A DNA stretch of 37,588 nucleotides from Magnetococcales bacterium (GCA_015232395.1 JADFZT010000042.1:2802-40389), one strand, 5' to 3'; counted from the stretch's first letter, positions 4-34,499 are shown. Notes: generated by a model not told the origin, from the letters alone. A program made the numbers and translations.

Positions 4-1935
4 ATGTCTTCCCCCAATCAGACGCTCTCTCTGAAACAGGCTTTGTCGTTGGGCGTAACCCACCTCCAGTCCGGACGCCTGAAACCAGCCGAAAGGGTGT
101 TTCAGGCCATTCTGTCCGCCCACCCCCTACACGCCGGAGCCCACCATTACTTGGGCGTCATCGCTTTTAGGACCGGTCGCCTTGAAACCGCCCTATCCCA
201 TTTAAATCAAGCCCTGGAGCAACAGCCCAACCTGGCCGAGGCTCACTTCATTCTGGGGAATGTCTACAAAAAATTGGCCCAACAGGAAACGGCAGAACAA
301 AGCTATCGGCAGGCTTTGGCGATCAAGCCTGATTTTCCCATAGTGCTCAACAATTTGGGTGAGCTTCTTCATGAGATGGAACGCTTTGGGGAGGCAGAGG
401 CGTGTTTTCGTCGCGCCGTGGAGATCAAACCCCAATTTGCCGCAGCTTGCAACAACCTGGGCAAGGCGCTACGTGACCTGGGGCGTTTCAAGGAAGCCGA
501 AGCTTGTTATCGACGCGCCTTGGCGCTCAAACCAGCCTATCAGGAGGCTCTATACGGCCTGGCCAACATGTGCCGGGTTCAAAGGCTGAATGCCGAAGCG
601 GAATCGACCTGCCGCCGCGCCCTGGAAATCAATCCCGACTCCCCCCAAGCACTCAATATTTTGGGAAGGATTCTACAGGGTCAAAACCGTCTTGCCGAAG
701 CAGAGGCCTCTTTCCACCGCGCCCTGGAAGCTCAAGCCGATTTCGTCGATGCCCATATCAGCCTGGGGGTTATGTTTGAACAATCCGGCCACATCCAGAA
801 GGCCAAAAGCCATCTTCAAAAAGCGCTCACGCACTCACCAAACAACCTGATGGTGCGCAACAACCTGGCCAAAATCCTGCGGCGGGAGGGTCGGATCGAA
901 GAGGCCATCGAGATGCTCAAGACAGTCACTTTGGAGCAGATACGCACCAAGCGGGCCTTTGCCATTCCGTTTGAACTGGGCAAACTCTACGACAAGGTGC
1001 ACGACACTCCAAATGCCTTCAAGCAATTCACCCATGGCAATGAATTGGTTTCTGAAACCGAAGATGCCAAGCTGGCCGATAAGGAAAAAACGCTTCGGGA
1101 TATAGATCAAAAACAGACGCTGCTCACCTGGGGGTGGGTTGATTCCTGGAACAAAACACCCCATCCCGCCAAAGCGGCCCCGCCTTTTTTTCTGGTGGGC
1201 TTTCCCCGTTCGGGCACCACCCTTCTCGACCAGGTTCTCAACAGCCACCCCGCTCTACAGGTCATGGAGGAAAAACCTTGCCTGGATGTGGTCCAAAACA
1301 CCCTTTTGACCCTTCCCGGGGGTTATCCATCCCTGGCCGACCTGACTGAAACGCAACTCCAGGAACTTCGAAACATCTATTTTAGAGAGACTAAGCGCTA
1401 CCTCCCATCAGATCCCAATGCCGGACTTGTGGACAAGCTGCCTCTTAACATCATGCATATCCCCTTGATCATCAGGCTATTTCCCAACGCCCGGATCGTT
1501 CTCTCTCTACGCCATCCCTGTGACGTGGTCCTGTCCAACTTTATGCAGGATTATCAAATCAATGATGCCATGGCCAATTTTTTCACCCTGGAGGATGCCG
1601 TCCACTATTACACAAAAGTGATGGGGTTGTGGCAGGCCTGCCAAACTTTGCCATCGGGCTATTTTCACACCATCAAGTATGAATCCCTGCTAGTGGATTT
1701 GCCGGGTGAAATCGGCAAGCTCCTGGACTTTTTGGAGCTTGATTGGGACGACGCGGTTTTGGACTATCGAAGCCAGATTCAAAAAAGAGGCATTATCAAC
1801 ACCCCCAGTTATGCACAGGTCACCGAGCCCATCTACCAGTCGGCCAAATACCGCTGGAAGCGCTATGAAGCACAGCTGAAACCATACATTGGCTCCCTGG
1901 CCCCCTTCATCAAAGCCTTCGGATATGCCGAATAG
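4..1935 (+). CDS. TPR-repeat sulfotransferase (paralogue 1, divergent subtype)
   Basis: Predicted PAPS-dependent sulfotransferase with an N-terminal TPR scaffold. About nine TPR units (residues ~10-320) carry the usual G/A-x-x-L-x-x-x-G and A-x-x-x-Y/F-x-x-A-L spacing. A C-terminal Sulfotransfer_3/TPST-like domain starts near 395. The 5'-phosphosulfate loop reads GFPRSGTT (~399-406), and the 3'-phosphate-binding strand/helix reads RIVLSLRHPCDVVLS (~497-511). The 3'-PB segment and C-terminus differ from paralogues 2-5, which share RSPxDTCxS and a conserved QVRxxxYxxS tail, so this is a separate subtype. No signal peptide is visible, so it is probably cytoplasmic. The acceptor is unknown: a glycan is favoured by the locus, a protein tyrosine is possible by family. 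The ATG lies three bases from the window edge, so a start further upstream cannot be excluded. Confidence 0.85.
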   Translation: MSSPNQTLSLKQALSLGVTHLQSGRLKPAERVFQAILSAHPLHAGAHHYLGVIAFRTGRLETALSHLNQALEQQPNLAEAHFILGNVYKKLAQQETAEQSYRQALAIKPDFPIVLNNLGELLHEMERFGEAEACFRRAVEIKPQFAAACNNLGKALRDLGRFKEAEACYRRALALKPAYQEALYGLANMCRVQRLNAEAESTCRRALEINPDSPQALNILGRILQGQNRLAEAEASFHRALEAQADFVDAHISLGVMFEQSGHIQKAKSHLQKALTHSPNNLMVRNNLAKILRREGRIEEAIEMLKTVTLEQIRTKRAFAIPFELGKLYDKVHDTPNAFKQFTHGNELVSETEDAKLADKEKTLRDIDQKQTLLTWGWVDSWNKTPHPAKAAPPFFLVGFPRSGTTLLDQVLNSHPALQVMEEKPCLDVVQNTLLTLPGGYPSLADLTETQLQELRNIYFRETKRYLPSDPNAGLVDKLPLNIMHIPLIIRLFPNARIVLSLRHPCDVVLSNFMQDYQINDAMANFFTLEDAVHYYTKVMGLWQACQTLPSGYFHTIKYESLLVDLPGEIGKLLDFLELDWDDAVLDYRSQIQKRGIINTPSYAQVTEPIYQSAKYRWKRYEAQLKPYIGSLAPFIKAFGYAE

Positions 1936-2010
1936 AAAACACGGCTCTTCCGGCGGAAGCGTACGTGGGTGGGTGACCCAGTCTGTGGACAAGGTACCAT
2001 CCGCCACACC

Positions 2011-2313
2011 CTCGATTATCAGGGATTGAGGGCTCATTGGAACAGCATTTTTCCAGGGTTCATACATGAGATCCACCATGAAAAACTGGCTGCCAATCAA
2101 GAGGTTGAGAGCCGACGGCTACTCGACTATTGTGGGCTGTCATGGGATGCACGCTGTCTGGACTTTCATCAAACGGATCGCCCGGTACAGACCGCTTCCC
2201 TGTTACAGGTCCGCAAACCCATGTATCGCAGCTCGGTAGAGGGGTGAAAGCGATATGAAAAGGAGCTGCAACCTCTGGTCGATATCGTTGGCAAACCGGA
2301 GTCTGCCCAATAA
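2011..2313 (+). pseudogene. C-terminal remnant of a TPR-sulfotransferase
   Basis: About 100 codons match only the tail of the neighbouring sulfotransferases. They include an AHW segment, a NQEVESRRLLDYCGLSWD segment and VQTASLLQVRKPMYRSS. The tail is interrupted by TGA at 2245-2247, exactly where the paralogues have Trp in G/R-W-K-R-Y. The frame continues afterwards as KRYEKELQPL to a TAA at 2311. No P-loop and no TPR part precede it. The sequence between 1936 and 2010 is not recognisably related. The simplest reading is the leftover 3' end of a deleted paralogue, with a later nonsense change (TGG to TGA). Confidence 0.85.
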
Positions 2314-2392
2314 CCCACACCCGACAGCCCGCTGATACCGCCATCGACCATTCGAATCAAGCCAACCTCTAAGCCTATATCCCAAATCCACC

Positions 2393-3994
2393 ATGAACAG
2401 ATCCCAAGCCATGAACAGATCCCAACGCAGGCAACAAAACAAACAGTCCAAAACCCCTTCCGGATCCTCTCCCAATCAACTGGAATTCCAGATTGTTACG
2501 GGTTCATCGCCTGCTGCCACGACCAACCCCCTGGCCCTTCTGCAACAGGCTTTGACTCACCATCAAGGGGGACAGCTCCCAGCGGCTGTAGCCACCTATC
2601 GTCAGTTACTTTCCTTGCAGCCTCACAACATGACGGCGCTGTGCAATCTGGGTGCGGCACTGAAAAATCTGGGTAAACTGAAAGAGGCAGCAGACTGTTT
2701 TCAGCAGGCCCTGACCATCCAACCGGATCAAGTCCTGGTGTTGAGCAATCTGGGGCTCACCCTTCAGGATATGGGGCGCCTGGATGAGGCGATTCGCTGT
2801 TTTCAACAGGCCCTGACTCTGGATCCCAAGCAACCCGCCATCCACACCAACCTGGGATTGGCCCTGGCCACCCAAGGAGAGATGAAAGCAGCGATTGCCA
2901 GCCAACAAAAAGCGCTGACCATCGCCCCCGGCTTTCCCCAAGCCCATTTCAGCCTCTCCCAAGCGCAAAAAATTCTTCCCGAGGATCCCAGGCTGGATCA
3001 AATGGCCGCCCTGGTGAACCAGGAAAAAACCATCGAAGGCCGGGTCTACCTCCACTTTGCCCTGGGCAAAAGTTTGGCCGACCTGGGACGCCACGATGAA
3101 GCCTTTCGCCACTATCTGGCGGGTAATCGACTGCAACGCAGCCGCTTTCAATTTAATCTGAGACAGCGCAAAAAAAGCTTTCATCGCTACCGCGCCCAGC
3201 TGGATCAAACCTTTTTTGCAGCCAGGCAAGGGTGGGGAATCGATGATCCCACCCCGATTTTTATTGTAGGCCTGCCCCGCTCCGGCACCACCTTGGCAGA
3301 GCAAATTTTGGCCAGCCATCCAGACGTTTACGGTGCCGGGGAGCTGCCCTTCATCAAGCAGATTTTAATGGCCAAAACCGGTGCTGCCGACCTGGGTGAA
3401 ATTCCTCTCAAGATACCTGCTCTCAACGCGATGGATTTTCAGCAGATGGGGCGGGACTATCTGGACCGGCTTCGCAAGCAAGCCGCCACCGCCGCCCCCC
3501 TTCCCCGTTTTATCAGCGACAAGATGCCCTTCAATTTTATCTATATCGGGCTCATTCGTCTCATGCTCCCCCAAGCCCGCTTCATCCACTGCCAACGCTC
3601 CCCCCGGGATACCTGTCTCTCCATTTTTTTCGCCCATTTTTCCGAAATCCACCCTTTTGCCTATGACCTCACCGAGCTGGGGGGCTACTATCGGCTCTAC
3701 CGGGAAATGATGGCGCACTGGCACCAGCTTTTTCCCGGAAAAATTCATAACCTCTCTTATGAAAAACTGACCCGGGATCAGGAGGGGGAGACCCGACGAC
3801 TGCTCGATTTTTGCGGACTAAATTGGCAAGAAAACTGCCTTCACTTTCACAACACAGCCAGATCCGTCAAAACTGCCAGCCAAGTACAAGTACGCAAGCC
3901 CCTTTACCGAAGCTCCTTGCAACGTTGGCGATGCTATGAAGCAGGGCTGCAACCTTTAATCTCAGCTTTGGGAAACGCACCGGAGCCGGATTGA
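2393..3994 (+). CDS. TPR-repeat sulfotransferase (paralogue 2)
   Basis: Predicted cytoplasmic sulfotransferase. A basic/polar N-terminus is followed by about four TPR units (~residues 45-185), a helical linker carrying the LHFALGKSLADLGR signature shared by the family, and the sulfotransferase domain. The 5'-PSB loop is GLPRSGTT (~293-300). The 3'-PB motif is RFIHCQRSPRDTCLS (~396-410), and the conserved tail contains QVRKPLYRSS. Two in-frame ATGs at 2393 and 2411 sit in an 18-bp near-perfect tandem duplication, so the N-terminus begins MNRSQAMNRSQ. Neither has a convincing Shine-Dalgarno sequence. It lies 79 bp downstream of the broken paralogue and 73 bp upstream of paralogue 3. PAPS use is inferred from the motifs; the acceptor is unknown. 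Confidence 0.88.
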   Translation: MNRSQAMNRSQRRQQNKQSKTPSGSSPNQLEFQIVTGSSPAATTNPLALLQQALTHHQGGQLPAAVATYRQLLSLQPHNMTALCNLGAALKNLGKLKEAADCFQQALTIQPDQVLVLSNLGLTLQDMGRLDEAIRCFQQALTLDPKQPAIHTNLGLALATQGEMKAAIASQQKALTIAPGFPQAHFSLSQAQKILPEDPRLDQMAALVNQEKTIEGRVYLHFALGKSLADLGRHDEAFRHYLAGNRLQRSRFQFNLRQRKKSFHRYRAQLDQTFFAARQGWGIDDPTPIFIVGLPRSGTTLAEQILASHPDVYGAGELPFIKQILMAKTGAADLGEIPLKIPALNAMDFQQMGRDYLDRLRKQAATAAPLPRFISDKMPFNFIYIGLIRLMLPQARFIHCQRSPRDTCLSIFFAHFSEIHPFAYDLTELGGYYRLYREMMAHWHQLFPGKIHNLSYEKLTRDQEGETRRLLDFCGLNWQENCLHFHNTARSVKTASQVQVRKPLYRSSLQRWRCYEAGLQPLISALGNAPEPD

Positions 3995-4067
3995 GGAGAA
4001 GTGCCACCGACTGGTGGGAAACACCCCAGGAGTAACTACCACTCCCACAAACAAATGCGAGACTTGA

Positions 4068-5648
4068 ATGGACACCAAATCACCACGGAATGAACAAAAC
4101 ACCCCTCCCCGGGAAAAAAGTCCGTCAGGTGATCCCGGGAAAACCGCCTCTCAGAGTTCCACGCCTCCAGAGGCCATTGCCGCGCTGAAACAAGGGGTGG
4201 CCCACCACCAGACCGGCCAGCTGGATCAGGCCATTGCCTGGTATCGCCGGACTTTGACGATTGACCCCCAAAATATCAATGCCATGAATAACATTGGGGC
4301 TGTTCTCAAGATGCAGGGAAAGCTGAAAGAGGCCGAACAGCATCTGAAACGAGCACTCGCCATCAACCCCCATTTTGCCTCAGCGCACAATAGCCTTGGG
4401 GTCGTCCTGAAAAACATGGGCCGACTGGATGAAGCGATCCGACACCTCCGGCAGGCTATCGCCCTCCAAGCAAATTATGCAAACGCCCACCACAACCTTG
4501 CCAATGCCCTGTTGGAATCAGGCCACCTTGCGGAATCAGAAAAGCATCATCGCAAAGTACTTGCCATCAAACCGAATGACATTATATCCATTTGTAATAT
4601 TTCATATTTACACAAACACACCGAAAATGATGATCTTATTCGCACCATGGAATCCCTGCTGGCCAATACCCCGTCCCAGGGTGATCAAATCAATCTAAAT
4701 TTTACGCTTGGCAAAGCCATGGCTGACTTGGGACAATATTCAAAATCCTTTCAATATTTTGCAAAAGGCAACGCCCTAAAAAGAGAAAGCTTTCAATATA
4801 ATATCGAAACAAGCAAAAATGTCGTTCGCCATCTTCGCGAACTATGCACAGCCCCCTACCTGGAAGAGCGTAAAGACAGCGGCCATCCAAATCCCACCCC
4901 CATTTTCATCATCGGCATGATCCGTTCCGGAACCTCCCTTTTGGAACAGATCTTGGCCAGTCATCCAAAAGTATACGGTGGGGGAGAACTCAACTTTGTC
5001 AATCAAATTCTTTTCAAAGACCGACCGTTTGCAGAGGTGTCGTTGGCGGGAGAGGTTCCCAATTATTTTTCCGGCTTGAATGCAGAGGAGATTGCGCAAC
5101 TGGGGGCCGAATATATCGGTAAAATACGCGAACTATCCGCTGATGCTGTTCACATCGTGGATAAAATGCCCTTCAATTTTCTTTACATCGGTCTTATCCG
5201 GACCATACTTCCCCAGGCCCGATTCATCCATATCCGCCGTTCTCCGTTGGACACCTGCCTGTCCATATACCGGATTAATTTCGGCAACCATCTGCCTTTT
5301 GCCTATGATTTGACCGAGTTGGGACAATACTATCGACTTTACCTGCAGATGATGGCGCACTGGAACAAAGTGCTCCCGGGGGTCATACACGAAATTTCAT
5401 ACGAAGAGTTGACTGCCAACCAGGAGCAGGAAACCCGCAGGGTCCTGGCCTTTTGTGATCTGGAGTGGGATGATTGCTGTCTCCATTTTCACAAGACCAA
5501 CAGGCCAGTGCGTACGGCAAGTTTTCAGCAGGTCCGCCGCTCCATGTACCAGACCTCCGTGGATGGCTGGAAACGTTATAAAGACGAACTACAGCCACTG
5601 ATCATGGCCCTGGGGGATGCCGTGGATGACGTTTCCCTGACTGATTGA
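4068..5648 (+). CDS. TPR-repeat sulfotransferase (paralogue 3)
   Basis: Same architecture as its neighbours: a charged N-terminal tail, four TPRs (~40-175), the LNFTLGKAMADLGQ linker, then the sulfotransferase domain. The 5'-PSB loop reads GMIRSGTS (~283-290), with Ile where the paralogues have Pro and Ser for the second Thr. The 3'-PB motif is RFIHIRRSPLDTCLS (~385-399). The tail has QVRRSMYQTS followed by WKRYKDELQPL, the same ending as the nonsense-mutated remnant upstream. Part of the TPR and linker region (about 4550-4850) is visibly more AT-rich than its neighbours, which may reflect a recombined segment. Likely cytoplasmic, and its acceptor is unknown. Confidence 0.87.
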   Translation: MDTKSPRNEQNTPPREKSPSGDPGKTASQSSTPPEAIAALKQGVAHHQTGQLDQAIAWYRRTLTIDPQNINAMNNIGAVLKMQGKLKEAEQHLKRALAINPHFASAHNSLGVVLKNMGRLDEAIRHLRQAIALQANYANAHHNLANALLESGHLAESEKHHRKVLAIKPNDIISICNISYLHKHTENDDLIRTMESLLANTPSQGDQINLNFTLGKAMADLGQYSKSFQYFAKGNALKRESFQYNIETSKNVVRHLRELCTAPYLEERKDSGHPNPTPIFIIGMIRSGTSLLEQILASHPKVYGGGELNFVNQILFKDRPFAEVSLAGEVPNYFSGLNAEEIAQLGAEYIGKIRELSADAVHIVDKMPFNFLYIGLIRTILPQARFIHIRRSPLDTCLSIYRINFGNHLPFAYDLTELGQYYRLYLQMMAHWNKVLPGVIHEISYEELTANQEQETRRVLAFCDLEWDDCCLHFHKTNRPVRTASFQQVRRSMYQTSVDGWKRYKDELQPLIMALGDAVDDVSLTD

Positions 5649-5668
5649 GAAAATCAATCTCTTTTTTA
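5643..5668 (+). terminator. weak intrinsic terminator-like hairpin
   Basis: A GATTGA / TCAATC stem (6 bp, loop GAAAA) is followed by a T-rich run (TCTTTTTT). It overlaps the stop codon of paralogue 3. The stem is AT-rich, so it may attenuate rather than end transcription between paralogues 3 and 4. Confidence 0.4.
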
Positions 5669-5766
5669 GGCCTGAAAGGATTCAGTCTTTCATCGACATG
5701 TGGGGTCGGTTTCCATTCCAACCAAAGAAACGCCCCCTCGACCCCATTATTCATCGAAAGCGCTCC

Positions 5767-7320
5767 ATGAACGATACCGACGAACCGCTTGATCAGAAAC
5801 AAACTGGAGCAACCGGAAAGTCCGGTCATAGCGGAAAAACCAACACCGCCAACCCGGAAAACACACCTCTTCAAGCGATTGCCGCACTGCAACAAGGAGT
5901 TGCCAAACACCAAGCGGGTCAACTGGACCAGGCCATTGGCTGGTATCAGCAGGCCCTGGCGATCGACCCTCAAAACACCGACGCCTTCAGCAACATGGCT
6001 GTAGCCCTCAAGGGTCAGGGCAAGCTCCAGGCGGCGGCTGAAAGCCTGAAAAAAGCCCTCGCCATCAAGCCTGACTTTGCCTCCGCTCATAACAATCTGG
6101 GGGTGATCCTCAAAGAGTTGCACGCCTATGACGAAGCAACAGATCATTTCAAAAAAGCCCTGGCCTTAACCCCCGATTTTGCCCAAGCCCAGCACAATCT
6201 CGGCAACGCTCTGGCCGAAGCGGGAAAGATCGAGGAGGCGATGGTTTATCTGGAAAAAACCCTGGCTCTGAAGCCCGATTGGTGCAAAGCCCACTACAGC
6301 CTCACCCACATTCGCAAATATCGGGTATACGACCCCCAAATTCGCACCATGGAGTCCCTCCATGCCCGAGTCACCGATCGGGAGGAGCGCATCGCCCTCT
6401 GCTTCGCCCTCGGCAAGGCGATGATCGACCTGAAAGAACACGCCAAGGGGTTTCAATATCTTCTGGAAGCAAACCGACTCAAGCGCGCCACCTTTCAGTT
6501 TGACATCGAAAGAAGCACCAAGGATTTCATGGCATTCACAAAACATTTCAACCAAGCTTTTCTGGATTCAAAGGCGGGTTGGGGCCATTCAGACTCTACC
6601 CCCATTTTTATCGTCGGCATGCCCCGCTCCGGCACCACCCTGGTAGAACAGATTTTGGCTAGCCATCCAGAGGTGCATGGGGGTGGGGAACTCCCCTTCC
6701 TAGCGGATGCAGTACGGGAAAAATTGTTTGCTGTGGGACAACAGTCGGTCCTGCCCTTGACCGCCCAGATGGATCGGCAGGGGTTCGATCAGCTGGGGGC
6801 GGCCATCGTTGGCAAGCTCAGAAGCCTCTCCCCCCAGGCCCGCTTTATCACCGATAAAATGCCGATCAATTTTCTCTACATCGGCCTGATCCGGCTCTTT
6901 CTGCCCCAAGCCAAAATCATCCACTGCGTCCGCTCCCCCCTGGACACCTGCCTGTCCATTTTTCGAACCAATTTTACCGGGGATCAACCCTTTGCCTATG
7001 ACCTGACAGAGCTGGGCCGTTTTTATCAGCTCTACCGGCAGTTGATGACCCACTGGCACCAGATGTTTCCCGGGGCCATTTACGATATCCATTATGAAAA
7101 AATCATCGCCGATCAGGAGGGGGAGAGCCGTCGACTCCTCGACCATTGTGGCCTGGAATGGGATGATCGCTGCCTCTCCTTTCAAAAGACCCAAAGAACA
7201 GTCCGCACCGCCAGTCTGGAGCAGGTCCGCCAGCCCATCTATTCCAATTCCATCGGCACCTGGAAATCATACGAAAAAGAACTGCAGCCCCTGATCAAAG
7301 CCTTGGGGGACTGTATTTAG
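5767..7320 (+). CDS. TPR-repeat sulfotransferase (paralogue 4)
   Basis: Predicted sulfotransferase of 517 residues, with four TPRs (~40-175), the LCFALGKAMIDLKE linker and the sulfotransferase domain. The 5'-PSB loop is GMPRSGTT (~284-291), the 3'-PB motif is IIHCVRSPLDTCLS (~382-396), and the tail contains QVRQPIYSNS. The ATG at 5767 was chosen because MNDTDEPLD resembles the short polar N-terminus of paralogue 3 and GAAAG lies just upstream. An in-frame ATG at 5698 would add 23 residues (MWGRFPFQPKK...) that have no counterpart in the paralogues. It ends directly against the GT4 gene with no gap, which implies co-transcription and perhaps translational coupling. Confidence 0.87.
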   Translation: MNDTDEPLDQKQTGATGKSGHSGKTNTANPENTPLQAIAALQQGVAKHQAGQLDQAIGWYQQALAIDPQNTDAFSNMAVALKGQGKLQAAAESLKKALAIKPDFASAHNNLGVILKELHAYDEATDHFKKALALTPDFAQAQHNLGNALAEAGKIEEAMVYLEKTLALKPDWCKAHYSLTHIRKYRVYDPQIRTMESLHARVTDREERIALCFALGKAMIDLKEHAKGFQYLLEANRLKRATFQFDIERSTKDFMAFTKHFNQAFLDSKAGWGHSDSTPIFIVGMPRSGTTLVEQILASHPEVHGGGELPFLADAVREKLFAVGQQSVLPLTAQMDRQGFDQLGAAIVGKLRSLSPQARFITDKMPINFLYIGLIRLFLPQAKIIHCVRSPLDTCLSIFRTNFTGDQPFAYDLTELGRFYQLYRQLMTHWHQMFPGAIYDIHYEKIIADQEGESRRLLDHCGLEWDDRCLSFQKTQRTVRTASLEQVRQPIYSNSIGTWKSYEKELQPLIKALGDCI

Positions 7321-8436
7321 ATGGGTACCGGCAGCCAAGGGAAAGAGCGGCCATTTATTTTGGTGACCGGCACCGACCCCGAAAGCCAAGCCGGGGGAAT
7401 TGCCAATGCCCTGCCAGGCTATTTGGCAGCACTTGATTTCGCCGGTTTTGAGTGGCGCTTCATCCGCACCCACCACCCGACGGATCCCGGGAGCCGGTTT
7501 GGCATCTGGTTTGTCGCCCTTTTCCGGATCACCCGACAGCTTTTGAAACTCCGTTTTCGGGGCATCAAAGTACAGCACTACGGCCATGCCGGTGAGATGC
7601 CTGCCCTCTTTCGCCAGGGAGTCATTCTCTGGCTGGTGCGGCTGTTGGGTGGTCGGGCCGCGATCCAGCTCCACGCTCTTCAGGTCTCCGACTATCTCAA
7701 TCACCCCCTGAAACGCCGCCTCTTTCTCACCTTTATTTCAGGTGCAAATGTGGTGTGCGTTCTCACCCCATGGTGGCAACAACGCTTGACCGAGGCGGGG
7801 GTTAAAAAGCCCCTTGCAGTCATTCCCAACCCTCTTCCCGCCAGCCTGGAAACAATTGCCCAGCAGCCCATTCCATCCCTGCCCCCCCCAAAACCAAGCG
7901 AAAATCCCAACCCCGGGATCACCCTCCTGGCCATCACCCGCCTGGTACCTGGCAAAGGGATCAAGGAGGTCATAAAAGCCCTCACTTACCTTCCAGACAC
8001 CTTCCGGTTGATCGTGGCCGGAGATGGCGAAAACCGCCAGATGCTGGAAACCTATTGCCACACCCTGAATCTGGACAGCCGGGTGCAGTTTACCGGCTGG
8101 GTGAGCGGGAAAGATAAAGAAGATTTATTCAAAAATTCGGATATATTGTGCCTCCCCTCCCAGTGCGACTCTTTTGGGATCGTATTTGTGGAGTCGATGG
8201 GGTATGGTTTGCCGGTTGTGGCTCTTGATTCCGGCCCTATTGGGGATGTGGTCCCTCATGGTCGGGGAGGCCTGCTGGTCAAGCAAAACGACCCGGCCAC
8301 ATTGGTCGCTGCCATTCGCTCCCTGGAAAACCCTGAAAAACGCCTCTCCCTGGGCCAATCTGCCAAGAGATGGGTGCTGGAGCAATTTTCAGCCAGGGTG
8401 GTGGGAGCGCGTTTGGAAAAGCTATTCATGGATTAA
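7321..8436 (+). CDS. glycosyltransferase family 4 (GT-B fold)
   Basis: Predicted cytoplasmic retaining glycosyltransferase of 371 residues, a typical GT4 length. The N-terminal half has a glycine-rich start (ESQAGGIANALPGYL). The C-terminal Glycos_transf_1 domain shows LAITRLVPGKGI (~202-213), LIVAGDGE (~237-244), RVQFTGWV, and a donor-binding segment DSFGIVFVESMGYGLPVVA (~282-300). That segment corresponds to the EX7E motif with Asp in place of the first Glu. The ATG follows the previous stop codon directly, with GGGGGA upstream as the ribosome site. In this locus it most likely adds a sugar to the lipid-linked repeat unit. Donor and linkage cannot be read from sequence. Confidence 0.9.
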   Translation: MGTGSQGKERPFILVTGTDPESQAGGIANALPGYLAALDFAGFEWRFIRTHHPTDPGSRFGIWFVALFRITRQLLKLRFRGIKVQHYGHAGEMPALFRQGVILWLVRLLGGRAAIQLHALQVSDYLNHPLKRRLFLTFISGANVVCVLTPWWQQRLTEAGVKKPLAVIPNPLPASLETIAQQPIPSLPPPKPSENPNPGITLLAITRLVPGKGIKEVIKALTYLPDTFRLIVAGDGENRQMLETYCHTLNLDSRVQFTGWVSGKDKEDLFKNSDILCLPSQCDSFGIVFVESMGYGLPVVALDSGPIGDVVPHGRGGLLVKQNDPATLVAAIRSLENPEKRLSLGQSAKRWVLEQFSARVVGARLEKLFMD

Positions 8437-8533
8437 CCCGGGACAATCCCAACGGCTGATCCATGATTTACATTTATTATTCAATAATTTCGGCGATTAG
8501 AAGCCTGATATGGATTGAGGTTTAACCCCAGGG

Positions 8534-9802
8534 ATGGCCACTGAAAAATCTGACATATCCCAACCGCAGATCCAGGAGATAAACGACCTGGCCCTTCGGC
8601 TGGAGACCCACTTTACCCAAACCAATACCGCCACCTTTGACCCGGCTGATCTCTTTGGCACCCCCTACGGTATTCTGGTCAAAAAAATCTGGTACCGGAA
8701 CAAATATCTGGCGGTGCTGCCTGCCCTGCCGCTGTTGCTGGTGGATTTTTTACTGCCGGGCCTGAAGAGGCTGTTTGTCAAAAAACGCCAACACGCCATT
8801 TGTCTGGCCCACTGGGGTTTGGGTTGCCTGAACCTGGCGGAAGTCCATCCGGAACGAAAGGATGAATTCCTGGAGAAGGCCAAATCCTGCCTGAAGACCA
8901 TCAACGATTTGGCGGTAGAAACCCCCAACGGCCTTGGCTGGGGAATTCACCTGAATTGGCAGACCATCGACGGTCTGATCCCGGCCAACACCCCCTGCCA
9001 CACCCAGACCGCCTATGTCTTCGAACTCCTGGATCGACTGAACAAAATCGAGCCTTCGTCAGAATATGACGCGCTCCTGGCAAAAATTGTCCAACACACC
9101 GCCCACGACTACCGGCAGGTAGACCTCCCCACTGTGGATGGCCCCATTACCGGCTATTCCATCGTCGATGAACGCACGGTGGTCAACTCCCAAAGCTATC
9201 GGGCCATGATCCTGATCCGGGGTTATCAGCTCCTTCGGGATCCGCTGCTGCTGAATCATTTCAACCCCTCTCTTGATTTCGTTCTCCAGTCTCAAAACCC
9301 CGACGGCTCCTGGCCTTATGCCGTCAAGGAAAGCTTTATCGACTGCTACCATACCTGCTTCGTTTTGAAAAACCTGTTTAAGATTGAAAAAAACCTCAAA
9401 GCGCTCGGTACAGACCATCATCTACCTGAAGATCTACTGGACCGGGTTCAAACCGCCCTGCAAACAGGAACAGCTTTTTTTAACAATTTTTTGCTCAAAG
9501 ATGGGCTACCCACCCCTTTTGCCCTCCGGCATCGCCCGGTTTCATACTTGTGGGATAGCTATGACATTGCCGAATCCGTCAATCTGTTGAATCTCCAGCA
9601 GGATGACCGGACCATTGGTCAAATATTAAAATTATTCCAAACACGTCTAATAACCCGAGAAGGACTGTTACGATTCCGCTATTATCCGACCATTTCCCGG
9701 CTGGTGGAGGGTGCCACTTACATCAGGCACGCAAACACTGCCTTTTTTCTAGCGTTAACCTATATCTTACGAAGGCACGCAAACGATGGAAAAAGGGATT
9801 AA
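8534..9802 (+). CDS. alpha/alpha-toroid (prenyltransferase/squalene-cyclase-like repeat) protein
   Basis: A 422-residue helical protein. A QW-type motif (QSQNPDGSWPYAVKES, ~255-270) and repeated helical segments with spaced Trp and aromatic residues suggest an alpha/alpha toroid, as in squalene/oxidosqualene cyclases and glycan-active (alpha/alpha)6 enzymes. A hydrophobic stretch (~57-77, LAVLPALPLLLVDFLLPG) could bind the membrane. The DxDD catalytic motif of squalene-hopene cyclases is not visible, so cyclase activity is not claimed. It overlaps the methyltransferase gene by 17 bp, so the two probably act together. Similar toroid proteins sit in polysaccharide clusters with undefined roles; epimerisation, lyase-type or glycolipid modification are options. 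Function unknown. Confidence 0.6.
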   Translation: MATEKSDISQPQIQEINDLALRLETHFTQTNTATFDPADLFGTPYGILVKKIWYRNKYLAVLPALPLLLVDFLLPGLKRLFVKKRQHAICLAHWGLGCLNLAEVHPERKDEFLEKAKSCLKTINDLAVETPNGLGWGIHLNWQTIDGLIPANTPCHTQTAYVFELLDRLNKIEPSSEYDALLAKIVQHTAHDYRQVDLPTVDGPITGYSIVDERTVVNSQSYRAMILIRGYQLLRDPLLLNHFNPSLDFVLQSQNPDGSWPYAVKESFIDCYHTCFVLKNLFKIEKNLKALGTDHHLPEDLLDRVQTALQTGTAFFNNFLLKDGLPTPFALRHRPVSYLWDSYDIAESVNLLNLQQDDRTIGQILKLFQTRLITREGLLRFRYYPTISRLVEGATYIRHANTAFFLALTYILRRHANDGKRD

Positions 9803-10622
9803 TCCGACGACCCTTCTGGAACTGACGCAACACAATAAAAAGCTGGGTCTGATTCGGATTCTCAAAAGCATGCGCTATGAACGGGCTGCTGAATTGCCCC
9901 TGATCATCGATCACCTGCGCCCTCGCCTTGAGGAACCTCTCTACTATCTGGATGTGGGTACCGGTGATTCCATTTTACCGACCTTTCTTTATGACAACAG
10001 CCGATGGTCCATCACGGTTGTGGACAAATGCGATTGGCTGTCAGAGCAGAAAGAGTACATGCTCCGACTGGGCCATACCGTTCCCAATGACCGCTTTCAA
10101 ATTTTCAAACAAAATATCCTGGATTACACCCCCGAGACCCCTTTGGATTTCATCACCTCCATCTCTGTCATCGAACACATCGAAGATCCCTTTGATCTGG
10201 AAGTGATGAAACACACAGCCTCCCTGCTGAAGCCCGGAGGTATCTATCTGCTCACCACTCTGGTCAACGATGGATTCCCGAGGGATTTTTACAAGGATGG
10301 GGAGGTGTATGGGGATAACCGCAAGGGGAAGGTGTTTTATCAGCGCCACTACGATCTTGATCTTCTGCAAAAACGTGTCATTGAGCCATCGGGACTCGAA
10401 GAAGCCGGAAGAGTCTATTTTGGCGAATACGACTTTCCCTTTGGCGAAAAATTTCTCTATCCACCGATCCGCAGATATCCGGGTAAGCTCCTCTACAACT
10501 GGGCCTCCCACTACTTTGCCCAAAAATATCTCAGCTACTCCAATGAGCCCATCAGCCGCTCCACCCTCTCCATGGATACGGCAGCAGGTGTCGTACTGCT
10601 GTTAAGAAAACCTACTGGTTGA
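9786..10622 (+). CDS. class I SAM-dependent methyltransferase
   Basis: A 278-residue Rossmann-fold methyltransferase. Motif I is YLDVGTGDS (~55-63), the acidic end of beta2 is VVDKCDW (~78-84), motif IV is in FITSISVIEHIEDPFDLE (~120-137), and LLKPGGIYLLTT follows (~146-157). The ATG lies inside the end of the preceding gene (17-bp overlap) with GAAGG upstream. The locus points to O- or N-methylation of a sugar in the surface polysaccharide. Another small molecule cannot be excluded. No signal peptide or membrane segment is seen. Confidence 0.85.
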   Translation: MEKGINPTTLLELTQHNKKLGLIRILKSMRYERAAELPLIIDHLRPRLEEPLYYLDVGTGDSILPTFLYDNSRWSITVVDKCDWLSEQKEYMLRLGHTVPNDRFQIFKQNILDYTPETPLDFITSISVIEHIEDPFDLEVMKHTASLLKPGGIYLLTTLVNDGFPRDFYKDGEVYGDNRKGKVFYQRHYDLDLLQKRVIEPSGLEEAGRVYFGEYDFPFGEKFLYPPIRRYPGKLLYNWASHYFAQKYLSYSNEPISRSTLSMDTAAGVVLLLRKPTG

Positions 10623-10631
10623 TTCCAAAGT

Positions 10632-12551
10632 GTGAAAGCATCTGCCAAAAGCCCAGGTCCAAAGCCAAGTCGAGCCAACCTGCAAACGCTTTTGCAACAG
10701 GGGATGACGCTGCATCAGGCTGGCCGAATCAACGACGCCGAAAAAATTTATCAGCAGATCATGGCCGCCCAGCCCAATCAGGCCGATGCCCTGCAACTGC
10801 TGGGCGTGATCGCCTCCCAGAGGGGAGAGTGGGATCTGGCTGTCGACTATCTGGGCCGTGCCTGCGCCATCACCCCCCACCATCCAGCAGCCCTTTTTAA
10901 TTATGGTCTCGCCCTCAAGGAAAAGGGCGATATCGACCAGGCGCTGACCCAATTTCGAAAGCTCATCCGACTCAAACCCGACTTTGCCGAAGCCCACCAC
11001 CAACAGGGCCTGCTCCTACAACAATCGGGTCACCTTGAGCGGGGGGAAGCCGCACTGCGCCAGGCGATCCGGCTTAAACCGAACTTCCCCCAGGCCCACC
11101 ACGATCTGGGCAACATTCTACAAAATCGACAAGCTCTCCCCGCGGCCATTGCCAGCTACCGGGAAGCGTTACGCTTGAACCCCTCATTTCCCGAAGCCCA
11201 TTATAATCTGGCCAACGCCTTAAAATCCCAGGGAAAGCTGGCCGAAGCCAAAGGATGCTATCAACAGGCCATCCGGTTAAAACCGGACCTCTTACCCGCC
11301 CACAACAATCTGGGCACCCTGCTGATGGAGCAGGGAGAGCTTGCCCAGGCGGTCAACTGCTATCGAAAAGCCCTCCAGCTCAAGCCCGATTTTTCCCAAG
11401 CCCACAACAATCTGGGCAACGCCTTGAAAAGCCTGGGAGAGCTGGATGAGGCGGTTTGGCACTATCAACAGGCGATCACCTTCAACCCCACTTTTGCCGA
11501 GGCCCACCGCCACCTGACCCACACCCGCAAAACCGATCCCCACAGCACACACCTGGCCCAAATGGAAAAACTCCTGGCAGATTCCAACCTCCCGGATACC
11601 GACCGGATCCATCTGCATTTTGCCCTGGGCAAGGCCAAAAGCGATCTACAACGCACCCGGGAAGGGTTTCAACATTTTCTCACCGGCAACCGTTTGCAAC
11701 GCGCCCGGACTCCCTTCGACCTCAACCAGGAACGCGCTTTTTTTCAGGCCATCCAGGAGAGATTCGACCCCGCTTTTTTTACCGCCCGGGCTGACTGGGG
11801 AGTGCCCGACCCCACGCCGATCTTTATCCTCGGCATGCCCCGCTCCGGCACCTCCCTGGTGGAGCAGATTTTGGCCAGCCACCCCGATCTCCATGGTGCC
11901 GGGGAGCTGACGATCCTGGAAGAGAGTCTCCTGGCCCATCCGGGGATCCACTCCCTGCATCAGCTTCCCAAAAAGATAGCCACCCTCAAGCAGGCCGATC
12001 TGGAAACCATGGGGCAGAACTATCTCAGCCACTTACGGCAGCGCCATCCAGGCAGGATCCCCTTCATCTCCGACAAGATGCCGGGCAATTTTCGTTTCAT
12101 CGGCCTGATCAAAATCATGCTGCCCCACGCCAAGGTGATCCACATCCAACGCTCCCCGGTGGATACCTGTTTTTCCATTTTTCGCAACTATTTTGCCCAG
12201 GGCCACGACTATTCCTGGGATCTCACCGAGCTGGGGGGCTACCACCGCCTCTATCAAGGACTGATGAGCCACTGGAAAACGGTTCTGTCTGACTTCGTGT
12301 ACGATCTCTGCTATGAAGAGTTGGTTGGAAATCAGGAAGGTGAGACACGGCGACTGCTGGATTATTGTGGCCTCGATTGGCATACCCGGTGTCTGGCATT
12401 TCATGAAACACACAGAAGCGTCCTGACCACCAGCAACGTTCAGGTCCGCAAACCCCTCTATGCCAGCTCCGTAGGCACTGGAAAAGCCTTCCAAGAAGAA
12501 TTAACCCCCCTGCTGGCTGCCCTCGCAGGGAAGAATGGGCCCAACCATTGA
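10632..12551 (+). CDS. TPR-repeat sulfotransferase (paralogue 5, long TPR array)
   Basis: A GTG start at 10632 gives 639 residues beginning MKASAKSPG. About eight TPR units (~15-290), many with the AHNNLG-type consensus, make this scaffold twice as long as in paralogues 2-4. The linker LHFALGKAKSDLQR precedes the sulfotransferase domain. The 5'-PSB loop is GMPRSGTS (~401-408), the 3'-PB motif is VIHIQRSPVDTCFS (~500-514), and the tail contains QVRKPLYASS. It starts 9 bp after the methyltransferase stop codon, with no strong Shine-Dalgarno, so coupling is likely. The catalytic domain is clearly a sibling of paralogues 2-4, while the TPR part has expanded. Confidence 0.88.
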   Translation: MKASAKSPGPKPSRANLQTLLQQGMTLHQAGRINDAEKIYQQIMAAQPNQADALQLLGVIASQRGEWDLAVDYLGRACAITPHHPAALFNYGLALKEKGDIDQALTQFRKLIRLKPDFAEAHHQQGLLLQQSGHLERGEAALRQAIRLKPNFPQAHHDLGNILQNRQALPAAIASYREALRLNPSFPEAHYNLANALKSQGKLAEAKGCYQQAIRLKPDLLPAHNNLGTLLMEQGELAQAVNCYRKALQLKPDFSQAHNNLGNALKSLGELDEAVWHYQQAITFNPTFAEAHRHLTHTRKTDPHSTHLAQMEKLLADSNLPDTDRIHLHFALGKAKSDLQRTREGFQHFLTGNRLQRARTPFDLNQERAFFQAIQERFDPAFFTARADWGVPDPTPIFILGMPRSGTSLVEQILASHPDLHGAGELTILEESLLAHPGIHSLHQLPKKIATLKQADLETMGQNYLSHLRQRHPGRIPFISDKMPGNFRFIGLIKIMLPHAKVIHIQRSPVDTCFSIFRNYFAQGHDYSWDLTELGGYHRLYQGLMSHWKTVLSDFVYDLCYEELVGNQEGETRRLLDYCGLDWHTRCLAFHETHRSVLTTSNVQVRKPLYASSVGTGKAFQEELTPLLAALAGKNGPNH

Positions 12552-12674: not shown

Positions 12675-14525
12675 GTGTGTGGAATTATCGGTACGGTCGG
12701 CTACCCCGGCCCCCTGGCCCCAGCCATCACCGCTTTACATCACCGAGGCCCCGACGGCTCCGGTGAAAAGCAGCTGGAGCTCCACGGCAAACCCATCCGC
12801 CTGGCCCACACCCGACTCTCCATACTCGATCTCTCCCCGGCAGGCCAACAACCCATGGTCAGCCGGGATGGACGCTGGTGGATCACCTATAACGGTGAGA
12901 TCTACAATCACCTGGAACTGCGCACCCCCCTGGCCATCCCGTTTCGGGGCCACTCCGATACCGAAACCCTGGTAGAACTTTTGGCCCACCAGGGGATCGA
13001 AAAAACCCTCCCCCTTCTCAACGGCATGTTCGCCTTTGCCGCCCTCGACACCCGGGAAGGCAAGCTCCACCTGGTCAGGGATCCCTTTGGGATCAAGCCC
13101 CTCTACCATCTCCACCATCAAGACACCTTTGCCTTCGCCTCCGAAGCCAGAGGAGTCAAAGCCCTGGGCGTGGTCCCGGGAGGGGTGGATCAAACCGCCT
13201 TGGAGGCTTTTTTCACCCTCCGGTATGTCCCCTCCCCCCAAACCCTCTGGCCAGGCATCAAACGCCTTCCCCCAGGCCACGGCCTCACCTTCGATATCGC
13301 CACAGGGGAGAGCCACATCTGGCGCTTTGTCACCCCTACCCGGGAGCGTTTCACGGGGAGTCTGGCGGATGCGGTGACGGCTTACCGCCAGGAGCTGGGG
13401 GGGGCGGTCGCCCGGCAACTTCTCTCCGATGTCCCTGTCGGAGTGCTCCTTTCCGGGGGAATCGATTCCGCCCTGGTGGCAGCGCTGGCCAAGGATGCCG
13501 GACGGGATCTGCCCTGCTTTTCAGTGGGATTCGGCCAGGGGCACGGAGAGTGTGAACTGGCCGATGCGGCTGAAACCGCCCAGGTGCTGGACCTGCCCTT
13601 TTCCCGGGTGGAAGTGAGCCCGGATCAGCTGCAAATGGCCTTTGCCGAAGTGACCGCCGCCATTGAGGAGCCTCTGGGCACCACATCGGTATTGCCCATG
13701 TGGTATCTGGTCAAAAAGGCCCGGGAAGATGTCACGGTGGTGCTCACCGGCCAAGGCAATGACGAACCCTGGGGGGGATATCGCCGCTATCAGGTGGAGC
13801 TACTGAGGAGCCTGGCTCCCTGGCCTGGGGGGTGGCAGGGGGCTGGATGGCTGACCAGACACCTCTGGCCGGGCATGCCGGATGTACTGGAGCGGGGTTT
13901 CAGAACCCTGCCGGTGCCCGATACCGCCAACCGCTTTGTGGAGGCGTGCGCCCTCTTTCCTGAAACATGGCGCCAACAGCTCCTGGGAACCACCTCGGAT
14001 GGCGGGGCTCGGAAGACGATGAACGGCTGGCTCGATTGGTTGCAGGGGAGCGATTGCGAGCCTGCCGAAAAGATGATGCGTCTGGATGCCCGCATGAACC
14101 TTTCGGACGATCTGCTTCTCTACGGCGACAAAATTTCCATGGCGGTCTCCCTGGAAACCCGGGTGCCGATGCTGGATGTGGAGCTGGTTCGCTTTGTGGA
14201 ATCCCTGCCCCTCTCCTACCGAATGGCCTTGCGTCAGACCAAGATTGTCCACAAAAAAATGGCTGAAGGATATCTGCCATCCACCATCGTCCATCGTCCT
14301 AAAAAGGGCTTCCAGGTGCCTTTCGGCGCTTGGTCCCGTGGTCCCTGGAAGGAGTGGGTTACCGCCGAACTTTTAGACTCTTCCGCCCCCCATTTTTCCC
14401 ATTTACAGCGCCGTGGCGTGGAAAAACTCTGGCAGGCGCATCTCGCTGGCAAGCCTGATCGCAGCCGCCAGGTGTTCGCGCTGTTGATGTTGGCCGTCTG
14501 GTGGAAGCAGCAGGAAAACCTATGA
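12675..14525 (+). CDS. asparagine synthetase-like glutamine amidotransferase
   Basis: A 616-residue AsnB-family enzyme with a GTG start that puts Cys at position 2 (MCGIIG), the nucleophile of class II glutamine amidotransferases. The N-terminal domain shows HHRGPDGSG, THRLS-type AHTRLSILD and YNGEIYNH. The synthetase domain has the PP-loop SGGIDS (~260-265) and LTGQGNDEPWGG (~356-367). The family transfers glutamine-derived ammonia to an adenylated carboxylate. In polysaccharide clusters such proteins are thought to amidate uronic acids rather than make free asparagine, and the neighbours favour that here. The stop codon overlaps the next start (ATGA). Confidence 0.88.
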   Translation: MCGIIGTVGYPGPLAPAITALHHRGPDGSGEKQLELHGKPIRLAHTRLSILDLSPAGQQPMVSRDGRWWITYNGEIYNHLELRTPLAIPFRGHSDTETLVELLAHQGIEKTLPLLNGMFAFAALDTREGKLHLVRDPFGIKPLYHLHHQDTFAFASEARGVKALGVVPGGVDQTALEAFFTLRYVPSPQTLWPGIKRLPPGHGLTFDIATGESHIWRFVTPTRERFTGSLADAVTAYRQELGGAVARQLLSDVPVGVLLSGGIDSALVAALAKDAGRDLPCFSVGFGQGHGECELADAAETAQVLDLPFSRVEVSPDQLQMAFAEVTAAIEEPLGTTSVLPMWYLVKKAREDVTVVLTGQGNDEPWGGYRRYQVELLRSLAPWPGGWQGAGWLTRHLWPGMPDVLERGFRTLPVPDTANRFVEACALFPETWRQQLLGTTSDGGARKTMNGWLDWLQGSDCEPAEKMMRLDARMNLSDDLLLYGDKISMAVSLETRVPMLDVELVRFVESLPLSYRMALRQTKIVHKKMAEGYLPSTIVHRPKKGFQVPFGAWSRGPWKEWVTAELLDSSAPHFSHLQRRGVEKLWQAHLAGKPDRSRQVFALLMLAVWWKQQENL

Positions 14526-16069
14526 CCGAGAGCACCATGCCAGAGATGGGTGGTCTCAGCCAACCGGCTGGAGAAAGCCACCAAGAAGGCGGGAGGCCAA
14601 GCCCGGTCGCTGAAAAACAGCCACCTCCCCTCCCCCATAAAAAACGGGCTCCAAGACCACCCAAAGGACTCTTTATCTGGATGGCCTTCATCGCCATCTA
14701 TCCCTTTTTCAAAAAACTCGAATTCATTAAAGAAATTCCGATCATCGGCATGCTGGAAGAGGTGCTGATGCTTTTGCTTTTGCCTCATGTTTTTCGAGGT
14801 CTGGCGATATTGTTCAGGGCTGGGTTTTGGGGTTACACGGCCTTTTTCGCCTACGTGGGCTATCTGATCATGGGGGTGATCAGCTGGGTTGGTTCTGGCA
14901 TTGATCCCGCCGCGATGGTGTTCCAGTTGGCCCTGGAACAAAAATTTCCCGTCATCACCCTGGCCTTTATCGGTGCCGGTCAAACCACTTGGATCTGGAG
15001 CCGTTTCAGTCTCATTGTCAAATTTTTACTGCTGCTTTCCCTGCCACTGGTGGTTTTTCAGATCATGGCCCCTCACACCTATGATGAGGTGTTTGCCGCA
15101 GGGGGCCACACCGCTTCATTGACCCTGCCCAACGGCTACAAATTGCCCAGGGGCGCGGGTGCTTTCTGGTTTCCCGGTGAGATGGCCGGTTTTTGCGCCA
15201 TGATGGGCGGCTTTTTTTATATCAGCATGCGGTTTAAAAAACCCCTTCCCGGAATGCCCAGGGAGGCAAACCATTTGGGGGGATCCCGACATCAGAATCT
15301 GATGAATCAAGCCAGCAACACCCTCTGGCTGGGGCTTGCCAGCCTGCTGTTGGTGCTGGCCTTTTCCCGTCAGGAGTTTGCCGGCTTTGTTCTCTGTATA
15401 GCGTTCATCTGGTTTATCTCCCTACCCAAGCAGGCCCTCGGGGTCAAACCCGCACTGATACTCCTTTTATCCGGCCTGGGAGCCCTGATCTTTTACCTGC
15501 TCCTACCCTATTTCATAGCGGTCGCTGAGAGCCTGGAACTCACCAGCATCGAAGATTCCCAAGCTGCCCGGGTGGTTTTCTATTATCAAGGGGTCATGAT
15601 AGCCCTCGACAAGTTTCCCCTGGGGGGAGGGCTGGGGGGATTTGCCGGCCATGCGGCAGCCACCTATGGCTCTCCACTCTACGATGCCCTGGAATTCCAT
15701 CGTTTCTGGTGGTATCGGGCAGGAGAATATCTCACCGATACCTTCTGGCCGCACATTTTGGGTGAGGCTGGATTTATAGGGCTATTCTGTTATTTATTGT
15801 CCATCGGCGCTTTGGCCATACTCTTCTTTCGCCTGGCCAGAAAGACCCGGGATCCCCTTTCCCGGGTCTACCTCCACACATCTCTCTTCACCGTCCTCTA
15901 CATGATGAGCGTTTCAGTCACCTCTCCGGTCTGGAACGGCTCCTTCGAATTGATGCTGGCCTGCTCCTGTTTTGGCATATTGGGCCCAGCCCTCTTAGAA
16001 CAGAAACGCCTTCATTCCCAAAAACTGTTCCGGGCGGGTATCAAGCCCAAATATTCTGCCCGCACTTAA
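14522..16069 (+). CDS. multi-pass membrane protein, O-antigen polymerase/ligase (Wzy/WaaL)-like
   Basis: A 515-residue inner-membrane protein. A Pro/Lys-rich cytoplasmic N-terminus (~1-50) is followed by roughly ten hydrophobic segments, for example FIWMAFIAIYPFF, SLIVKFLLLLSLPLVVF, LWLGLASLLLVLAF and ALILLLSGLGALIFYLLLPY. A long periplasmic-like loop before the last helices carries GGGLGGFAGHAAATYGSPLY, as in Wzy/O-antigen ligase proteins. The ATG at 14522 was chosen because it forms an ATGA overlap with the upstream stop and has AGGAAAA at good spacing. An upstream in-frame codon at 14501 lacks this. The role inferred from topology and context is polymerisation or ligation of the repeat unit. 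Sequence identity of this class is low, so the exact subtype is uncertain. Confidence 0.7.
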   Translation: MTESTMPEMGGLSQPAGESHQEGGRPSPVAEKQPPPLPHKKRAPRPPKGLFIWMAFIAIYPFFKKLEFIKEIPIIGMLEEVLMLLLLPHVFRGLAILFRAGFWGYTAFFAYVGYLIMGVISWVGSGIDPAAMVFQLALEQKFPVITLAFIGAGQTTWIWSRFSLIVKFLLLLSLPLVVFQIMAPHTYDEVFAAGGHTASLTLPNGYKLPRGAGAFWFPGEMAGFCAMMGGFFYISMRFKKPLPGMPREANHLGGSRHQNLMNQASNTLWLGLASLLLVLAFSRQEFAGFVLCIAFIWFISLPKQALGVKPALILLLSGLGALIFYLLLPYFIAVAESLELTSIEDSQAARVVFYYQGVMIALDKFPLGGGLGGFAGHAAATYGSPLYDALEFHRFWWYRAGEYLTDTFWPHILGEAGFIGLFCYLLSIGALAILFFRLARKTRDPLSRVYLHTSLFTVLYMMSVSVTSPVWNGSFELMLACSCFGILGPALLEQKRLHSQKLFRAGIKPKYSART

Positions 16070-16768
16070 AAACCACAACACGCCCCTCCTGTTGAGACAC
16101 CATTTTTGCAGGATCCCCCCAGCCATCTCTTACCGCCAAGGGTCACCTGGCTTGTTTTCCACAGCCAACAGACTCTCCCCTGGCCGTCGAAAAAACCATT
16201 TGATGGTGATCCATTCAATGGATCACCAAGCTTGATATCACACCAGAAGAGCGCGCCTGTTTTTTACCCTGAGAGAGAGAAAAACATCTGACTGGAACAG
16301 CGTTTGGCCTGCAAAAAAAATCAATCCACAACGCCGCCCCGTTGAATGTGTCCGATAGCATAGCCTGATTTACCACTCCATTGGCTGGCAATCGCCTTCT
16401 TTTTGTTGCATTGCAAAGGGGTTGAGAGCTATTCTCAGACAGGTAGAGAGTCCATCATACCGAATACGATCGAATGGTCCGAAATCAACCTCGCAAAATC
16501 GACCAGACCCCTTCTTCATTGGGTGCGTCGGGGCTTGCTTGGATTATGATGACGGTTGGATCACGGATGGGTTACGATGGCAACAAGCCGGGATGCCGGC
16601 AGAAAAGCATGAATCCGGCCAGATAGTTTCCCTGGAAACAGCCTTTCATCCAGAGGATAAACGGCTACGTTGGGACGGTGGATCCGTTATTCGGAAAATC
16701 CCCCCAAGGGACCGACCGTCAGGCCATCATGGGGCTCGACATTCTGGAATATGCGTGGAGTCGAAAGC
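16070..16768 (+). other. 699-bp non-coding stretch upstream of wecG-like gene
   Basis: No supported gene. Short open frames here (for example 16106-16291 and 16422-16772) have no recognisable domain, odd composition and no convincing ribosome site. The region contains the perfect palindrome at 16204-16228. It is the largest gap in the polysaccharide locus and is a good place for the promoter and regulatory sites of the genes from 16769 onwards. No clear sigma-70 or sigma-54 promoter could be assigned. Confidence 0.5.
16204..16228. promoter_or_regulatory. perfect 12-1-12 palindrome, operator-like
   Basis: TGGTGATCCATT, a central C, then AATGGATCACCA: every base of both 12-bp arms pairs. There is no following T-run, so it does not look like a terminator. 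Near-zero spacing between the arms is typical of a binding site for a dimeric regulator. It sits 541-565 bp upstream of the WecG-like start and about 135 bp after the Wzy-like stop. Confidence 0.6.
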
Positions 16769-19141: not shown

Positions 19142-19170
19142 TTTTCCTCTCCTGGAGGGGTGTTGGCGCC

Positions 19171-27583: not shown

Positions 27584-27807
27584 GATGCTCACCAAACGAG
27601 AAAACCACCTTGCCAATTATTGGCCACCAGACAAAAAGGCGGCGTGGGAAAATCCGTTCAAACAAATCAGAGAGGCCTAAACAAACCTATTCCGCAACAA
27701 CCAGACCAATAGCACATTTTATCGGTGCGTGTCATAAAAAAATGGACTCCTTTGTCTTGTGAATTAAATTTAACACCCAATCCATTCCGTCAACCAGCAT
27801 CCACCAC

Positions 27808-34280: not shown

Positions 34281-34499
34281 GGAATAAATTCCAAAGTCCC
34301 AAACAGGCTAAGGATGACCGACAACACCGATTCGGCTGGCATTGTCATCGAATCTGCCTTCCCCTCTGGGGAATTTCCTGGAAAAATGGGAGGCATCATC
34401 CTGCAAAAAATGATACTCTGATCTGTGGAATATTCAGGCCCGATTTTTTTTATGACGGCGTGGGGCTTTACAATAAACAGTGGTTTGTAGAGGGTGGCG

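Follow-up and report, generated by a model that had tools for sequence, protein, structure and literature searches.

Five TPR-sulfotransferases in a Wzx/Wzy-type polysaccharide locus of a Magnetococcales bacterium, candidate enzymes for sulfation of a surface glycan

What could several sulfotransferases with tetratricopeptide repeats (TPRs) be doing side by side in one bacterial polysaccharide locus? The question is raised by a stretch of 37,588 nucleotides (the window) from a Magnetococcales bacterium (GCA_015232395.1; contig C42, 2802-40389; genome of 4.94 Mb), in which five intact genes joining TPRs to a Sulfotransfer_3 domain, together with one decayed tail, lie within positions 4-12551. 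The reading favoured here, to which we give an even chance of being right, is that by analogy with known systems the five would be cytosolic O-sulfotransferases of a Wzx/Wzy pathway, dependent on 3'-phosphoadenosine-5'-phosphosulfate (PAPS) and sulfating the lipid-linked repeat unit before its export by Wzx. The TPR-sulfotransferase genes of the window are:

4..1935, + strand: TPR-sulfotransferase 1; PF13469 at 129.8 bits, 9 TPRs, of a lineage apart from copies 2-5
1990..2310 (about), + strand: C-terminal remnant of a further TPR-sulfotransferase, decayed and interrupted by an in-frame stop at 2245-2247
2393..3994, + strand: TPR-sulfotransferase 2; PF13469, 4 TPRs
4068..5648, + strand: TPR-sulfotransferase 3; PF13469, 4 TPRs
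5698..7320, + strand: TPR-sulfotransferase 4; PF13469, 4 TPRs, structure modelled
10632..12551, + strand: TPR-sulfotransferase 5; PF13469, 8 TPRs
32124..33437, - strand: sixth TPR-sulfotransferase, of a distant Sulfotransfer_1 type, whose homologue at locus L230 passes the PF00685 cut-off

All five intact open reading frames (ORFs) of the array match PF13469 (Sulfotransfer_3) at 130-165 bits, the cut-off being 27, and strong TPR matches were found in each by profile search, the TPR superhelix preceding the sulfotransferase domain. The 34-residue periodicity gives 9, 4, 4, 4 and 8 repeats for copies 1 to 5, the same numbers as in an earlier, sequence-only reading of this DNA, whose five intact genes and one broken tail are likewise borne out; the tail, between copies 1 and 2, represents the final ~95 codons of a sulfotransferase domain. 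As a total for the window, five is one too few, since the gene at 32124-33437 was not listed in that reading. Homologues of this sixth enzyme are confined to three other families of the order, and its single-sequence model (predicted local distance difference test, pLDDT, 50) was too poor and was not used. The extreme N-terminus of copy 1 is uncertain because the gene abuts a scaffold N-gap (L131:2628-2830, contig C42) with identical coding sequence on both sides, a duplication of the flanks that is an assembly artefact. In the whole genome 21 Sulfotransfer_3 matches were counted, the range being 0 to 29 per genome across the 41 genomes searched.

Are these enzymes likely to be active? Indeed, in the alignment none of the five copies lacks any of the residues of the PAPS site and of catalysis (R, S, G, E, K, R, S), each copy has the 5'-phosphosulfate-binding (5'-PSB) motif, the 3'-phosphate-binding (3'-PB) motif and the catalytic residue of a PAPS-dependent sulfotransferase, and no copy has lost its PAPS-binding residues. 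Positions equivalent to Arg78, Glu99, Lys158 and the 3'-PB Arg/Ser of the tyrosylprotein sulfotransferase TPST2 are kept in 86-87 of the 87 aligned rows, and the catalytic and PAPS residues as a whole in no fewer than 85. In TPST2, we take Arg78 to belong to the 5'-PSB, Glu99 to be the catalytic base, Arg101 to contact the substrate and the Arg/Ser pair to form the 3'-PB. Arg101 is not conserved: Pro and other residues stand at its column, and the substrate contact of TPST is not retained. On paper, this supports five catalytically intact enzymes.

The predicted fold agrees with the domain make-up. An AlphaFold model of copy 4 has a pLDDT of 88.5; values exceed 90 over most of the TPR and catalytic regions, and the first 50 residues are disordered. 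In Foldseek searches with this model, the TPR half matched OGT and SPINDLY, and the catalytic half matched tyrosylprotein sulfotransferases (target TM-score, TMt, 0.58-0.64; E 2e-8 to 3e-7); phmmer matched TPST at 1.7e-10, and the catalytic part has the fold and active-site layout of a TPST. By analogy with OGT and SPINDLY, the TPR part would pick the substrate, which is consistent with the faster divergence ahead of the catalytic domain described below.

A search of the genome for PAPS-synthesis genes, as suggested in the sequence-only reading, was positive: both an ATP sulfurylase and an adenylyl-sulfate (APS) kinase are present, and PAPS can therefore be made. PAPS is located in the cytosol and no obvious signal peptide was seen by eye in any of the five copies; the five enzymes should therefore work in the cytosol. 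In the proposed mechanism, PAPS made by the ATP sulfurylase and APS kinase would be bound by the P-loop-like 5'-PSB motif PRSGTT/S, the conserved Glu would deprotonate the acceptor hydroxyl, and the TPR superhelix may hold the acceptor or dock on membrane-bound assembly enzymes. Separate copies could then sulfate separate positions of the lipid-linked repeat unit, which Wzx would flip.

The choice of a lipid-linked glycan as acceptor leads to the genes around the array, which are:

L131:1065-2426, just upstream of the window: Wzx-type flippase
7321..8436, + strand: GT4-type glycosyltransferase (PF00534)
8534..9802, + strand: protein of no assigned type, weakly squalene-hopene-cyclase-like by profile, whose homologues pair with AsnB amidotransferases
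9786..10622, + strand: methyltransferase (PF13489)
12675..14525, + strand: AsnB-like amidotransferase (PF00733, TIGR01536)
14501..16069, + strand: polytopic protein, probable Wzy polymerase (by topology only; weak HpsL match only)
16670..17551, + strand: WecG/TagA/CpsF glycosyltransferase (PF03808)
17723..19141, + strand: priming undecaprenyl-phosphate sugar transferase (PF02397)
19138..20184, + strand: Wzz-type chain-length protein (PF02706)
20282..21184, - strand: GfcB/YjbF lipoprotein (PF11102)
21126..23879, + strand: SLBB/Poly_export outer-membrane export protein with a GfcC-like end (profile match)

Profiles uphold the locus setting given in the sequence-only reading, with matches for GT4, methyltransferase, AsnB amidotransferase, WecG, priming transferase, Wzz, GfcB and SLBB/Poly_export. 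As in the synechan locus of Synechocystis, genes for Wzx, Wzy (here by topology), polysaccharide copolymerase, outer-membrane polysaccharide export protein and priming transferase share one cluster with sulfotransferase genes, and from copy 2 through the Wzy-like gene all lie on one strand with intergenic gaps of -25 to 123 bases. Furthermore, the methyltransferase at 9786-10622 has a 78% identical paralogue in the same genome, directly after a stand-alone sulfotransferase (L157:15218-17147, near the end of contig C12).

Two candidate functions within the window were considered and set aside. For the product of 8534-9802, the activity considered was that of a uronyl C5-epimerase, as would suit a glycosaminoglycan-like polymer; the protein has no Pfam or NCBIfam match, and the profile search gave squalene-hopene cyclase with no strong single stretch. 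A sulfatase-family gene (26171-27616, - strand) was taken up as a proof of sulfate turnover; it has Thr at the formylglycine Cys/Ser position and lacks the Arg of CxPxR, and to judge from these residues its product is more likely a transferase or another hydrolase than a sulfate esterase. Separately, two overlapping frames beside the export gene (24032-25125, + strand) resemble, by eye, a frame-shifted IS630-type transposase, and an 853-residue protein (34494-37055, + strand) has no Pfam or NCBIfam match.

How did the array arise? In trees of the catalytic domains (143 and 87 rows), copy 1 falls in a separate deep lineage (Shimodaira-Hasegawa-like approximate likelihood ratio test, SH-aLRT, 100), together with a copy of the same genome on contig C58, tandem copies of a Hydrogenophilales metagenome-assembled genome and Crenothrix copies. 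Copies 2-5 lie within a clade of Magnetococcales only (23 rows; ultrafast bootstrap 96, SH-aLRT 90), which also holds many copies of another family and the genome's own copy on C8; the decayed tail groups with them in one of the trees. The single tandem family of five proposed from the sequence alone has therefore to be given up: copy 1 belongs elsewhere in the tree, not all copies are mutual nearest relatives, and three genes (GT4, the 8534-9802 gene and the methyltransferase) interrupt the array between copies 4 and 5. Local duplication, the origin proposed in the same reading, is ruled out for copy 1 by its tree position; for copies 2-5, a single clade is not rejected (approximately unbiased test, p 0.42), which falls short of showing it. 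Judging from the trees, copies 2-5 are as old as copies in other families, with local duplication possible among them. They share 46-59% identity in the catalytic domain vs 28-42% in the preceding 100 residues, a pattern consistent with conserved chemistry and changing recognition. Tandem sets of two to four TPR-sulfotransferases and fused double enzymes were seen in other loci, and the tandem arrangement itself is therefore common; among the loci read, no other set reaches the five plus a tail of this array. In the fused enzymes, two TPR-sulfotransferase units are joined head to tail in single ORFs (L063:7013-12091, L104:9929-14071 and L120:9587-13825; Paludibacterium, Bradyrhizobium).

Relatives of copies 2-5 in other Magnetococcales were found in several glycan contexts, namely beside an AsnB amidotransferase, with an APS kinase close by and a fused ATP sulfurylase (L218), beside Wzy_C and an ABC-2 exporter (L220), beside GT2 (L222) and beside NeuB and sugar epimerases (L164); others adjoin TPR-GT41 genes. 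At L218 (7915-10619), a pyruvate-kinase barrel, a PUA-like domain and ATP sulfurylase are fused in the ORF beside the APS kinase, with the TPR-sulfotransferase adjacent. Over 79 loci, a crude test found a predicted signal peptide no commoner in adjacent genes than in distant ones; a signal with a terminal F/W was more frequent upstream (5/41 vs 5/226). A Pfam tally showed an excess of TPR, GT41, autotransporter and porin families in genes beside TPR-sulfotransferases over distant genes, the numbers being small except for TPR.

Taken together, the near-invariant catalytic and PAPS residues, the confident model of copy 4 and the PAPS-synthesis genes support O-sulfotransferases. A glycan acceptor is favoured because copies 2-5 and several of their relatives are placed in glycan contexts, because Wzx, Wzy-like, Wzz, export and priming genes surround the array, because the methyltransferase paralogue follows another sulfotransferase, and because synechan sets a precedent (PMC8205485). 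Several observations weigh against it. The nearest solved catalytic domains are those of protein (tyrosine) sulfotransferases, not of glycan ones; two or three sugar transferases are visible vs five sulfotransferases, the contig ending ~2.8 kb upstream; some relatives of copies 2-5 adjoin housekeeping genes; and sister TPR-sulfotransferases adjoin secreted proteins or peptide systems. Furthermore, the related genome G024 has adjoining WecG (59% identical), AsnB (64%) and 8534-type (29%) genes without a TPR-sulfotransferase there; the array is therefore an accessory of this type of glycan locus and not part of its core pathway. The TPST-like catalytic domain, the partner genes of the sister lineages and this AsnB-WecG core without TPR-sulfotransferase keep a protein acceptor as a serious rival, one that we regard as possible though not probable: the array would sulfate Tyr, Ser or Thr of surface or secreted proteins as TPST and RaxST do, its TPRs, nearest to those of OGT and SPINDLY, would read a polypeptide as in OGT, and the genes would owe their place in the glycan locus to targets that are glycoproteins or are co-regulated. 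In the orthologous group of the genome's C77 copy, a giant adhesin-like ORF lies directly upstream in all six genomes in which that neighbour is visible (L133:1-8592, L212, L213, L214, L215, L217), with Calx-beta repeats in three, Ig-like repeats in one and, in two, neighbouring genes for ABC or HlyD export, and relatives of copy 1 in Hydrogenophilales and Crenothrix (two species) flank a PEP-CTERM-type protein. A tyrosylprotein sulfotransferase is moreover coupled to type I secretion in a bacterium by raxX-raxSTAB (PMC6637879). Within the window, however, no exported-protein gene adjoins copies 2-5, several of whose relatives lie among glycan genes; Arg101 of TPST2 is not conserved; and the genome, when searched, contained no exosortase, for which reason an exosortase link was dropped.

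The deep split of copy 1 and the PEP-CTERM-type neighbours of its relatives would also suit a mixed use, in which copy 1 modifies a protein and copies 2-5 a glycan, the array being an accretion of enzymes for unrelated substrates; yet copy 1 stands on the same strand between the Wzx gene and the other copies, with no protein target seen, and this seems unlikely. A largely redundant build-up of decaying paralogues without separate functions is very improbable: one copy is already a decayed tail and the number of Sulfotransfer_3 matches fluctuates across the order, but five copies keep all catalytic residues, and that they do so at 46-59% identity among copies 2-5 argues for long-term selection on each.

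The adhesins and a peptide system found beside sister enzymes merit description. In two adhesins of the C77 group, the Calx-beta repeats contain recurring DTLYEGDE-like stretches with tyrosines in an acidic setting, which may be just the Calx-beta consensus. In 11 Magnetococcales genomes (the C117 copy of this genome, eight of family f13 and two of f9; L132:2460-6626, L159:9446-14335, L023-L025, L030, L031, L033, L035-L037 and L042), an HprK_rel_A kinase gene lies immediately upstream of a TPR-sulfotransferase gene, and both such loci read fully also contain PqqD_rel_X and a short gene whose product has the Tat-like start RRR..LKGLAAGVPAV. The sulfotransferase there may be part of the HPr-rel-A peptide system; we know of no assigned function for that system.

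Compared with described systems, the proposed sulfation of the repeat unit by several enzymes most resembles synechan (xss), likewise from a Wzx/Wzy-type locus with more than one sulfotransferase gene. Synechan has two sulfotransferases and about two sulfates per repeat, a sulfate count that fits its enzyme count (PMC8205485). Its two sulfotransferases are of distinct subfamilies and it has eight glycosyltransferases in a cyanobacterium, whereas the present locus, known from genes alone, has five TPR-bearing enzymes and few visible glycosyltransferases in Magnetococcales. TPST1/2 and RaxST share with the array the positions of the 5'-PSB Arg, the catalytic Glu, Lys158 and the 3'-PB Arg/Ser, TPST being the closest solved fold, and differ from the array copies at Arg101 of TPST2. 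To our knowledge, TPST and RaxST carry no TPRs. OGT and SPINDLY (TPR plus GT41) likewise set a TPR superhelix ahead of a transferase, but with a different catalytic domain and donor, and TPR-GT41 genes adjoin TPR-sulfotransferases in several loci. A like architecture, TPR plus Sulfotransfer_1, was tabulated in 2005 for M. loti, X. axonopodis and an uncultured bacterium (PMC554113), as single proteins and with no function, array or locus context described there; no assigned function for the TPR-sulfotransferase family was found in the literature. Polysaccharide loci with sulfotransferase genes have been described in cyanobacteria (PMC8205485); the novelty here lies in how the TPR-sulfotransferases are combined, in their number and lineage, and in the lineage-specific partner genes.

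According to the authors of the synechan study, sulfated polysaccharides have, among bacteria, been reported only from cyanobacteria (PMC8205485), and the present locus, of Wzx/Wzy type, proteobacterial and with its five sulfotransferases intact, offers a direct test of this statement. If the neighbour pattern of the sister lineages reflects targets, the giant adhesins and the Tat-like peptide would be candidate substrates. A broader and rather doubtful idea is that TPR-sulfotransferases could be a large family and a bacterial counterpart of OGT, each cytosolic lineage being dedicated to an exported target of its own (giant Calx-beta/Ig adhesins, the HprK_rel_A/PqqD peptide system, PEP-CTERM proteins, capsule repeat units), with the present array as the capsule branch and surface-protein sulfation common in Magnetococcales and other Proteobacteria. 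The TPR-sulfotransferase family is probably a general toolkit for cell-surface sulfation.

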